In this document: positions 2,331 through 63,119 of the stretch, piece by piece
How the letters are laid out: each line of letters starts with the position of its first letter
Numbering within the stretch: position 1 is the stretch's first letter
Assembly: GCF_004365655.1 (NCBI RefSeq)
Contig: NZ_SOEO01000003.1
Coordinates: 62,001 to 126,000, forward strand
Length of the DNA: 64,000 nucleotides
Reading direction: 5' to 3'
Source: Epilithonimonas xixisoli
GTDB taxonomy: Bacteria; Bacteroidota; Bacteroidia; Flavobacteriales; Weeksellaceae
Translations under genes and position numbers: made by a program
Notes under the pieces: model-generated
Seen by the model: the letters and a program-made list of their open reading frames with translations, nothing else
Told to the model about the DNA's origin: nothing
The model's database searches: none

Positions 2331-2440
2331 AGGAGCCGGGAACCTGCTGTCCGTTGCGATCTTTTTTGCATTACGTTTTGTCAGGCTGAGGTTCTCGAAG
2401 CCCACGCAAAAAAGGATTTCCACTACCATCAGGGCTAGGG
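2331..2440 (+). repeat. Two-arm intergenic repeat, copy A
   Basis: Starts AGGAGCCGGG, has a CCGTTGCGATCTTTTTTGC arm, a short middle, and a GCAAAAAAGGATTTCCACTA arm that ends AGGGCTAGGG. The same arms in the same order occur, reverse-complemented, at 31421-31518, and a related version occurs at 17752-17890 and 35724-35857. The T-rich and A-rich arm ends are complementary, so the unit can fold into an imperfect long hairpin. Confidence 0.7.
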
Positions 2441-31420: not shown

Positions 31421-31518
31421 AAAGCCCATAGCCCCGATTGCAACGGCATCCTTTTTCTGCAGTGGCTTGAAAAAAGCGAGGGCGAAAAAGATATAGTGGA
31501 AAGCGGGATTAAGCTCCT
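31421..31518 (-). repeat. Two-arm intergenic repeat, copy B
   Basis: In the minus orientation it reads AGGAGC...CCCGCTTTCC...CTTTTTCG, then AAAAAGGATGCCGTTGCAAT and CGGGGCTATGGG, the same arms and order as copy A at 2331. It ends 25 nt before the ribE start. No riboswitch fold could be recognised in it. Confidence 0.7.
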
Positions 31519-48727: not shown

Positions 48728-49453
48728 ATGAAATGTGATATTCTGGCAATTGGCGCACATCCAGACGATGTAGAATTGGGATGTGGCGGAACAATCGCTA
48801 AACTTATTTCCGAAGGCAAAAAGATTGGAATCATAGATCTGACACAAGGCGAACTGGGAACCAGAGGCACCATAGAAACCCGCGCTCAAGAAGCAAGCGA
48901 TGCCGCAAAGATATTAGGTATCAGCGCAAGGGAAAACTTAAAGCTGAAAGATGGCTTTCTCAATAATTCTGAGGAATATCAACTTAAGATTGCTGAAATG
49001 ATCAGAAAATACCGACCGGAAATTGTTTTTGCCAATGCGATAGATGATCGTCATCCAGACCATGCAAAGGCAGCAAAACTCATTTCTGATGCTTGTTTTA
49101 TCTCAGGATTGAGAAAAGTTGAGACTTATAATGATAAAGGCGATTTGCAAGAGGTTTGGAGGCCAAAACATATTTTCCATTACATCCAATGGAAAAATGT
49201 TGAACCAGATTTTGTAGTCGATATTTCGGGGTTTCTTGATAAAAAAATAGAATCTTGCTTGGCTTACAAAACCCAGTTTTATGATCCAAGTTCCACAGAA
49301 CCAGTGACGCCGATTACAACCAAAGACTTTCTAGAGAGCTTGACTTACAGAGCACAAGATTTGGGAAGGCTTTCTGGCGTTGAGTTTGCAGAAGGTTTCA
49401 CGACAGAAAAATTGATTGCAATCAAAAATTTCGATGGAATAGTTTGCAATTAA
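48728..49453 (+). CDS. bshB1: Bacillithiol biosynthesis deacetylase BshB1
   Basis: 241 residues. LmbE-like zinc deacetylase: AIGAHPDDVELGCGGT with His/Asp metal ligands, and DDRHPDHAKAAKL. It removes the acetyl from GlcNAc-malate in bacillithiol synthesis; the length and ENLKLKDGF and ALG-like region match BshB1. Flavobacteria use bacillithiol. The -33 promoter box of the next tRNA gene is inside its last codons. Confidence 0.9.
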   Translation: MKCDILAIGAHPDDVELGCGGTIAKLISEGKKIGIIDLTQGELGTRGTIETRAQEASDAAKILGISARENLKLKDGFLNNSEEYQLKIAEMIRKYRPEIVFANAIDDRHPDHAKAAKLISDACFISGLRKVETYNDKGDLQEVWRPKHIFHYIQWKNVEPDFVVDISGFLDKKIESCLAYKTQFYDPSSTEPVTPITTKDFLESLTYRAQDLGRLSGVEFAEGFTTEKLIAIKNFDGIVCN

Positions 49454-49473
49454 ACGATAAAATGTTATATTTG
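49443..49473 (+). promoter_or_regulatory. Two-box promoter of tRNA-His
   Basis: TTTG (49443-49446) inside the end of bshB1, 19-nt spacer, TATATTTG (49466-49473). Transcription would begin about 7 nt before the tRNA, a fine match to consensus. Confidence 0.8.
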
Positions 49474-49487
49474 CACACGCAAAAACG

Positions 49488-49561
49488 GTGATTGTAGCTC
49501 AGTTGGTTAGAGCGCCGGATTGTGGTTCCGGAGGTCGGGGGTTCGAGACCCCTCATTCACC
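49488..49561 (+). tRNA. tRNA-His (anticodon GTG)
   Basis: Cloverleaf: acceptor GTGATTG, D-stem GCTC/GAGC with AGTTGGTTA, anticodon arm CCGGATTGTGGTTCCGG with GTG, T-arm GGGGGTTCGAGACCCCT, 3' strand CATTCAC and C73. The extra G (49487) typical of histidine tRNA can pair with C73. The pair at position 5-68 is T-T, not a normal pair. The CCA end is not encoded. Confidence 0.95.
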
Positions 49562-60400: not shown

Positions 60401-60431
60401 AAAGCATTTGCAACCCTCGCAGATGCTTTTT
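60401..60431 (+). terminator. Terminator after GNAT gene
   Basis: AAAGCATTTGC pairs with GCAGATGCTTT (one mismatch) around a 7-nt loop, followed by T. Confidence 0.85.
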
Positions 60432-60686
60432 TTGGGATTGATTTTCTTCTTGATTTAATGTCAAAAATGAATGGATGATGAACAAATTCGAAACTTCAAA
60501 TTTTAGTTTGTCAACTAAAAAAAATTCTGTTTTGATTTAAATCCTGATTTTAAGTTCATTAATAAAATCAAAAATATTCTAAAAATCAATATTTCAAAAC
60601 AATGTTATGGCGATATTAATTCTCGTTGAAACTTCCCTGAATTGATTCTTAAGTATTATTAACAAAGGGATAATGATTCATTAAAG

Positions 60687-60714
60687 TTTGATATCAGGTA
60701 TAATTTTAGATTTG
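60687..60714 (+). promoter_or_regulatory. Promoter boxes with no coding gene behind
   Basis: TTTG (60687-60690), 16-nt spacer, TAGATTTG (60707-60714). Spacing is slightly short; the -7 box is perfect. Transcription would begin about 60721. Confidence 0.55.
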
Positions 60715-60720
60715 TCGCAG

Positions 60721-60812
60721 AATGAAATCAAGCAAATGCCTGATAGTAATTTTTCTTCATATACTATTTTTAAATTTAAGAAGTCTGTTATCCGTAGCAG
60801 ACTTTTTTTATT
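60721..60812 (+). ncRNA. Candidate small RNA
   Basis: About 92 nt between a TAGATTTG promoter box and a terminator hairpin (AAGTCTG...CAGACTT plus T run, 60781-60812). An ATG at 60722 opens 41 codons, but the frame reads through the terminator, so a peptide is unlikely. No homologous family recognised. Function unknown. Confidence 0.5.
60781..60812 (+). terminator. Orphan plus-strand terminator
   Basis: AGTCTG and CAGACT stem with an 11-nt loop and T7 run on the plus strand, although no plus-strand protein gene precedes it. Confidence 0.8.
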
Positions 60813-61031: not shown

Positions 61032-63119
61032 CTAACTAATCTGCGACCACTTATTCTTCCCCTTATATTGCTTGATGTAATATTGCTTCATCATCTGATT
61101 GTCGGGACGCGTCAGTAGTGCATCTTGTTCCAATATCTTTTCCACAGCCAGTTTTGAAGCTTTGATGATGGCAGAATCCTCTATCAAACTCAATTTTTTA
61201 AAATCCACAACACCACTTTGCTGAGTTCCGAGAATATCGCCTGGTCCACGCAATTCCATATCGACCTCAGAGATTTTGAAACCGTCAGTCGTCGCTACCA
61301 TCGTTTTGATTCTCGTTCGGCTTTCCTTGCTGAGTTTATCGCCCGTCATCAGAATACAATAACTCTGTTCTGCGCCTCTACCAACACGTCCCCGCAACTG
61401 ATGAAGCTGAGACAATCCGAATCTCTCCGAACTTTCGATGACCATTACAGAAGCATTTGGAACATTCACACCAACTTCGATTACAGTTGTTGCTACCATA
61501 ATTTGTGCTTGTCCGGAAGCGAAATATTGCATATTGGCATCTTTCTCCGCAGGTTTCATTCGGCCGTGAACCATCGTCACATTGTAGCTTTTGAAGAAGT
61601 TCATTACGCTTTCCAAACCTTCCATCAAGTTTTTGTAATCCAAAGTTTCAGATTCTTCGATTAATGGATAAACAAAATAGATTTGTCTGCCTTTTTCAAT
61701 CTCTTCTCGACAGAAATTATAAACCGAAAGTCGGTCTTTTTCTCGTCTGTGAGCGGTGATGATTGGTTTTCTTCCAACCGGCATTTCATCGATTACAGAA
61801 ACATCCAAATCGGAATAAAAACTCATCGCCAAAGTCCTCGGAATCGGCGTTGCGGTCATTACCAAAATATGTGGCGGAATATTATTTTTTGCCCAGAGTT
61901 TTGCCCTTTGTGCTACTCCGAATCTGTGCTGTTCATCAATAATTGCCAAACCAAGATTCTGGAATTTCACTTTGTCTTCCAAAAGCGCGTGCGTCCCAAT
62001 CAGGATAGAAAGTTGTCCGTTTTCCAATTCTTCGTGGATGATTTTACGCTCGGCAGTTTTGGAAGAACCCGTCAAAAGTCGAACGTTGATATTCGTATTT
62101 TGAAGTAATTCTTTGATGGAATTAAAATGTTGTTGTGCGAGAATTTCTGTCGGTGCCATCAGACAAGATTGAAAACCATTGTCCATCGCAATTAGCATTG
62201 TCAAAAGTGCAACCATCGTTTTCCCCGAACCAACATCGCCTTGAAGCAACCGGTTCATTTGGGTCGAGCGTTTCATATCAATTCTGATTTCTTTCAGAAC
62301 GCGTTTCTGTGCATTTGTAAGTTCGAACGGAAGATTATTTTCATAAAAACTGGTGAAATATTCGCCGACAATTGGAAACGGATTTCCGAATGATTTTGTT
62401 TTTTGATGAAGTTTCTTCAAGCCGTAACCAAGTTGGAAAAAGAAAGCTTCCTCGAACTTCAAGCGCCTGTTGGCTTCATCAAATTGTTTTAAATCTTTTG
62501 GGAAATGAATGAAATAAAAGGAATTAAGTCTTCCAATCAACTTCATCGATTTCATCAAATAATCCGGCAGATTTTCCTGAATTAAGTTTTGTAAATCTTT
62601 CAGCAGATTGAAAATTACGGTTTGAAATGATTTATTTGTAATGCCTCGTTTAGTCAGCTTTTCACTTCCAGGATAAACCGGGAGAAGCGTTCCCTGCAAA
62701 GCTTTTTTCTCATCAACCTCGATTTCCGGATGAGGCATCGAGAAGTTTCCATTAAAGAAATTGACCTTTCCAAAAATGAAAATTTCCTGATTCAATGGAA
62801 TCGCATCTTTCATCCAATTCGTATATCGGAACCAGACCAAATCCATCGTTCCGGTCTCGTCCCGGAATTTCGCAGACAGGCGTTTTCCCTTCTCATAAAC
62901 CACTTCTTGTATGTCCGTAATTTTTCCTTTCAACTGAATGTCAGCTTCAGAGTCTTTAGCTATATTCCCAATTTTGTGGATTTTACTTTTATCGATGTAT
63001 CGGATTGGGTAAAAAGTGAGCAAATCTTCCACAGTCGAAATCCCCAACACGTTTCTGATGAGTTTTGCGCGTTCGGTGCCGATGCCTTTGAGAAATTCTA
63101 TGGAAGTTTCTAATGTCAA
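61032..63119 (-). CDS. recG: ATP-dependent DNA helicase RecG
   Basis: 695 residues, the usual length. N-terminal wedge domain, then helicase motifs: Walker A GDVGSGKTMVALL, DEQHRFG (DExH box), MTATPIPRTLAMS, and VATTVIEVGVNVPNA and QLRGRVGR. Restarts stalled replication forks and processes Holliday junctions. The gene begins at ATG about 130 nt after the thioredoxin gene on the same strand. Confidence 0.96.
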   Translation of the reverse strand: MTLETSIEFLKGIGTERAKLIRNVLGISTVEDLLTFYPIRYIDKSKIHKIGNIAKDSEADIQLKGKITDIQEVVYEKGKRLSAKFRDETGTMDLVWFRYTNWMKDAIPLNQEIFIFGKVNFFNGNFSMPHPEIEVDEKKALQGTLLPVYPGSEKLTKRGITNKSFQTVIFNLLKDLQNLIQENLPDYLMKSMKLIGRLNSFYFIHFPKDLKQFDEANRRLKFEEAFFFQLGYGLKKLHQKTKSFGNPFPIVGEYFTSFYENNLPFELTNAQKRVLKEIRIDMKRSTQMNRLLQGDVGSGKTMVALLTMLIAMDNGFQSCLMAPTEILAQQHFNSIKELLQNTNINVRLLTGSSKTAERKIIHEELENGQLSILIGTHALLEDKVKFQNLGLAIIDEQHRFGVAQRAKLWAKNNIPPHILVMTATPIPRTLAMSFYSDLDVSVIDEMPVGRKPIITAHRREKDRLSVYNFCREEIEKGRQIYFVYPLIEESETLDYKNLMEGLESVMNFFKSYNVTMVHGRMKPAEKDANMQYFASGQAQIMVATTVIEVGVNVPNASVMVIESSERFGLSQLHQLRGRVGRGAEQSYCILMTGDKLSKESRTRIKTMVATTDGFKISEVDMELRGPGDILGTQQSGVVDFKKLSLIEDSAIIKASKLAVEKILEQDALLTRPDNQMMKQYYIKQYKGKNKWSQIS

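Follow-up and report, generated by a model that had tools for sequence, protein, structure and literature searches.

A conserved intergenic unit in Epilithonimonas that very probably encodes an uncatalogued regulatory small RNA

We analyzed a 64,000-nucleotide stretch of the Epilithonimonas xixisoli genome (the window), in which a first-pass annotation had pointed to an intergenic promoter and terminator as a possible independent small RNA. That annotation took the sole nearby gene to lie on the opposite strand. A plus-strand GNAT acetyltransferase gene in fact lies upstream (Table 1), but it has its own intrinsic terminator (kept in most carriers in the alignment), which is followed by approximately 200 nt of weakly conserved spacer ahead of the RNA element. 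The GNAT terminator is predicted to insulate the RNA gene from upstream transcription. In all carriers, porZ, recO, and the GNAT gene were upstream of the element, within the extent of the stretches fetched. Downstream, recG was found in most carriers, at a distance from the core that varied from approximately 80 to 407 nt. The Imm27-family gene was present in some carriers and missing from others, and no toxin partner for it was noticed among the flanking genes looked at.

Table 1. Features of the locus (positions in the window)
Feature	Position	Strand	Basis or remark
GNAT acetyltransferase gene	ends 60395	+	Pfam; nearest plus-strand gene upstream of the RNA element
Intrinsic terminator of the GNAT gene (AAAGCATTTGC/GCAGATGCTTT, then T-run)	60401-60433	+	Sequence reading
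Conserved promoter-upstream region	60632-60690	+	Mean pairwise identity, 0.79
Palindrome TAATGATTCATTA, centered near -42	60671-60683	+	Alignment; candidate activator or repressor site
TTTG at about -32 to -33	60687-60690	+	Sequence reading
-7 box TAGATTTG (sigma-A consensus TAnnTTTG)	60707-60714	+	Sequence and alignment
Predicted small RNA, ~91 nt	60719-60809	+	5' end placed from the -7 box and 3' end from the T-run
Small, weak 5' hairpin (ATCA...TGAT), candidate	60727-60744	+	Folding and alignment
Near-invariant core AATTTTTCTTCATATACTATTTTTAAATT, 29 nt, predicted single-stranded; candidate seed	60748-60776	+	Alignment and folding
Intrinsic terminator, 13-bp stem, then T7	60778-60809	+	Sequence and compensatory changes
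Imm27-family gene, 56 aa	60838-61008	-	Between the RNA element and recG
recG	61032-63119	-	Downstream neighbor

The -7 box was identical in 13 of the 14 aligned species and fitted the sigma-A consensus in all 14. The nearby TTTG noted in the first-pass annotation was kept in only 6 of these species, and its 16-nt gap to the box is a little under the usual spacing. Unlike the TTTG, the palindrome was mostly retained across the species, and this combination suggests regulated transcription, possibly through a regulator acting at the palindrome. We rejected the palindrome as a regulon-wide site, given that its exact arrangement occurred only at this locus and that copies with up to three mismatches were at chance level in the window. 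In Flavobacterium psychrophilum, the box TAnnTTTG is located at -12 to -5 (PMC9723704). The same placement here leads to an expected +1 at 60719 and an RNA of approximately 91 nt, which fits better than the start at about 60721 given in the first-pass annotation. Elsewhere in the window, the tRNA-His gene (49444-49561) likewise lies between a promoter of this type (TTG-N19-TATATTTG) and a terminator, and it could serve as an internal control.

Approximately 63 nt separate TAGATTTG from the terminator hairpin (60778-60807), which overlaps the T7 run (60803-60809). This plus-strand terminator, including its T7 run, had been claimed from the window alone; it was conserved in 14 of 14 species and covaried. 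In the carrier alignment, 98.9% of the pair cells of the stem were still paired despite sequence variation, with compensatory changes from UA to CG and from UA to AU and changes on both sides at two pairs. The 59-nt segment before the terminator was as unstructured as shuffled sequences (z = 0.11), and folding accordingly models the RNA as mostly single-stranded on the 5' side of the terminator. Without excess structure in this segment, the core is likely accessible. The small 5' hairpin varied in length and had zero compensatory changes among the carriers. The complement of the core reads AGTATATGAAGAAAAA. An apparent second copy (C2:379418) was dismissed as a chance match within an OmpA-family signal peptide.

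To quantify conservation, we calculated the mean pairwise identity among 13 carriers and used the 4-fold sites of recO (0.52) as the neutral yardstick. The -7 region and the 29-nt core each had an identity of 0.99, and the 5' end of the RNA had an identity of 0.94. Values were lower for the hairpin loop region (0.62), the terminator (0.76 to 0.81), the spacer (0.58 to 0.60), and the sequence past the terminator (0.36). A plus-strand RNA gene predicts this picture, in which promoter and core stay fixed and the terminator drifts but remains paired. The check in relatives by which the small RNA reading was to be judged therefore came out in its favor, with promoter, core, and terminator all kept.

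The element is, as far as we could determine, specific to the genus. A blastn search of 59 genomes (the E. xixisoli genome and relatives) detected it in 14 of the relatives, each belonging to the same genus, which makes 15 carriers among the 23 genomes of GTDB genus Epilithonimonas, with the element at one syntenic place. With a covariance model applied to 197 genomes of the family, the 14 carriers and the window's own element scored 104 to 115 bits, the next best match scored 45 bits, and nothing convincing was found outside Epilithonimonas. The matches of 37 to 45 bits outside the genus and the second matches inside it consisted mostly of post-gene sequence with an unrelated terminator (e.g., in L054, the sequence after an acetyl-CoA acetyltransferase gene) and were taken as chance. 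An exact search with the core among named genomes returned Epilithonimonas lactis, E. hominis, E. arachidiradicis, E. hispanica, E. caeni, E. hungarica, and one further species, as well as three records labeled Chryseobacterium and two clostridial matches (chance). Eight genomes of the genus were without the element. Four of them (G007, G008, G009, and G019) had clean empty sites, where GNAT was followed by recG at a distance of up to approximately 120 nt. The whole unit, from promoter to terminator, was present or missing as a single block across genomes. On the recO tree, its presence and absence required three changes, which is compatible with, but does not prove, one old gain and two losses.

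Promoter-like and terminator-like sequences may pair by chance in AT-rich intergenic DNA, and TAnnTTTG by itself was frequent (668 sites in 464 kb, i.e., the window and 20 stretches totaling 400 kb of the genome). We searched this sample for TTG-N16-23-TAnnTTTG followed within 30 to 140 nt by a hairpin and a T-run. The full pattern was found six times, two of which were tRNA genes (His in the window and Met in L163), while six first-order Markov nulls contained 0, 0, 1, 0, 0, and 0 occurrences. On the basis of these counts, the pattern is a fair detector of RNA genes in the genome sampled. A chance pair is hardly credible here, considering conservation far beyond neutral, a covarying terminator, and presence or absence as a unit. 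Two further loci, L170:12685 (+) and L172:14838 (-), have a TAnnTTTG promoter and a terminator followed by an ORF and are candidate attenuated leaders or small RNAs.

Open frames do occur in the window, and a tiny peptide could in principle be read from the plus strand (MKSSK... or MPDSN...) or the minus strand (MKKNYYQ...). We regard this as extremely unlikely. Each of the two possible plus-strand starts is replaced by ACG in some or most relatives, and indels are not multiples of three; the loss of starts and the broken frames exclude these reading frames, in agreement with the earlier statement that nothing coding lies between promoter and terminator. The minus-strand frame is shifted in G001 and G021, and the core is almost unchanged at every codon position, compared with 52% agreement at the recO 4-fold sites. 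Since the same upstream genes always adjoin the element, it might instead act in cis, as a leader, a 3' untranslated region, or a DNA site for GNAT, Imm27, or recG. This is very unlikely given the GNAT gene's own terminator and the divergent 200-nt spacer after it, the convergent orientation of recG and Imm27 on the opposite strand, the absence of Imm27 from many carriers, and the variable distance to recG. The small RNA reading was thus upheld on conservation grounds, together with the covarying stem and the block-wise presence or absence of the unit. We are highly confident that this conserved, constrained noncoding unit, with its promoter and covarying terminator, is a small RNA gene. Because the middle of the RNA has hardly changed across the 14 aligned species, the product is very probably a real regulatory small RNA, uncatalogued and transcribed from a stand-alone gene.

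The explanation that we favor as a whole, and consider likely, is a trans-acting small RNA of approximately 91 nt with its own transcription that pairs at start regions without Hfq. In the model that we infer, from transcription and the 5' end to the base-pairing mode, the RRM role, and the targets, the housekeeping sigma factor would initiate at approximately 60719, perhaps under positive or negative control by a regulator on the conserved palindrome near -42, and the transcript would end at approximately 60809 at the intrinsic terminator. The unstructured core would then be an extended seed: by annealing to A-rich regions of translation initiation (ATGAAGAAA-type starts), it would keep ribosomes from entering, in the manner of Bacteroides GibS and FopS. 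Pairing would proceed without Hfq, perhaps aided by the RRM RNA-binding protein encoded in the genome.

Several observations bear on this model. The core antisense resembles a Flavobacteria start region, with a score that matches the top quarter of true starts and places it among the highest-scoring 1.2% of ATGs in the sample, a resemblance that was noticed post hoc. Hfq (PF17209) was absent from the genome, in which positive controls were found. An RRM protein (L173:1495-1830) with a glycine/arginine-rich tail scored above the NCBIfam cutoff for RNA-binding regulators and is possibly, by analogy, the functional counterpart of Bacteroides RbpB. In Bacteroides, GibS, FopS, MasB, and BatR each pair close to start codons (PMC7366714, PMC11697453), and the GibS seed of Bacteroides thetaiotaomicron pairs around start codons without a Shine-Dalgarno sequence (PMC7366714). 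On the strength of the start-like antisense, these precedents, the lack of Hfq, and the RRM protein, our leading hypothesis is antisense repression at start codons. Taken alone, start-codon targeting is in our judgment evenly balanced.

Target prediction covered the sampled part of the genome (400 kb; 20 stretches). Pairing of the core at 351 starts was not significantly above that of shuffled cores, 6 of 60 of which were as good. Start-like 16-mers showed no enrichment in carriers: relative to the control pattern, they occurred 1.27 times as often there (excluding the element itself) and 1.50 times as often in noncarriers. Of the long complements at gene starts, the best one in the genome belonged to a secreted metalloprotease (L090). 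This gene and a GH28-like pectinase gene (L172) with a complement were rejected as targets since their pairing was not carrier specific.

That these tests confirmed no target would also suit a real small RNA that acts not through mRNA pairing but through a protein, by sponging or regulating an RRM protein, another RNA-binding protein, or an RNase. The core is U-rich and single-stranded, which would suit RRM binding as well, and an RRM regulator is encoded in the genome. Nevertheless, the 29-nt run is fixed at almost all positions and contains no repeated motif, a degree of constraint beyond the usual needs of a degenerate protein site, and the Bacteroidota small RNAs so far studied act by mRNA pairing; we therefore consider a protein-binding role rather unlikely. 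A bolder form of the start-pairing model is that of a genus-specific global regulator mimicking the antisense of the Bacteroidota start consensus lacking Shine-Dalgarno sequences, with an RRM protein standing in for Hfq. We consider this improbable; if it were true, one RNA would repress many mRNAs for secreted proteins with ATGAAGAAA starts.

Few small RNAs have been characterized anywhere in Bacteroidota. Rfam searches over the region, at the gathering threshold and with E values of up to 5, returned only chance-level matches. Neither 6S RNA (RF00013; zero matches in the region or the genome) nor Flavo-1 (RF01705; no match in the region) accounts for the element. The literature on small RNAs of Chryseobacterium, Elizabethkingia, Riemerella, and Epilithonimonas yielded nothing on the element, and no published small RNA from Epilithonimonas or Chryseobacterium was found in the literature searched. 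The element has no match in Rfam and did not turn up in the literature searched; it represents a new family of intergenic small RNAs, of a kind that is already known. Its 29-nt core is fixed, it occurs once and at one locus in each of 15 species, and natural noncarriers exist; it is therefore well suited for studying how RNA regulators are used by bacteria that lack Hfq and Shine-Dalgarno sequences and whether RRM proteins serve small RNAs beyond Bacteroides.

Among known systems, Flavo-1 is likewise a small RNA of Flavobacteria, but the Epilithonimonas RNA does not match it; two Flavo-1 copies occur in the window (31426-31514, plus strand; 2336-2440, minus strand), with more in L170 and L172. 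Rfp18 of F. psychrophilum (PMC9723704) is a conserved small RNA of Flavobacteriia that affects protease mRNAs, and one unconfirmed complement here is a metalloprotease start. By description, Rfp18 is strongly folded into three or more stem-loops, the third of which does the pairing, whereas the Epilithonimonas RNA is mostly unfolded. The FopS family of Bacteroides resembles the Epilithonimonas RNA in layout, with a single-stranded stretch leading into a terminator hairpin, and FopS acts near start codons and is bound by the RRM protein RbpB (PMC11697453). FopS has 12 to 15 paralogues per genome in Bacteroidaceae, while the Epilithonimonas RNA is single copy. FopS is reported to have been deposited in Rfam (PMC11697453). 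As to relation by descent, the Rfam release used, which may or may not contain the FopS model, gave neither a match above threshold nor a plausible weaker one. GibS (PMC7366714) shares several traits with the Epilithonimonas RNA, i.e., a stand-alone intergenic location, genus restriction, a largely unfolded RNA, a highly conserved single-stranded seed, an intrinsic terminator, and a host without Hfq. No sequence relation between the two was found, and they differ in length (145 nt versus approximately 91 nt), in the seed at the 5' end of GibS, and in promoter type (PM2 versus TAnnTTTG).
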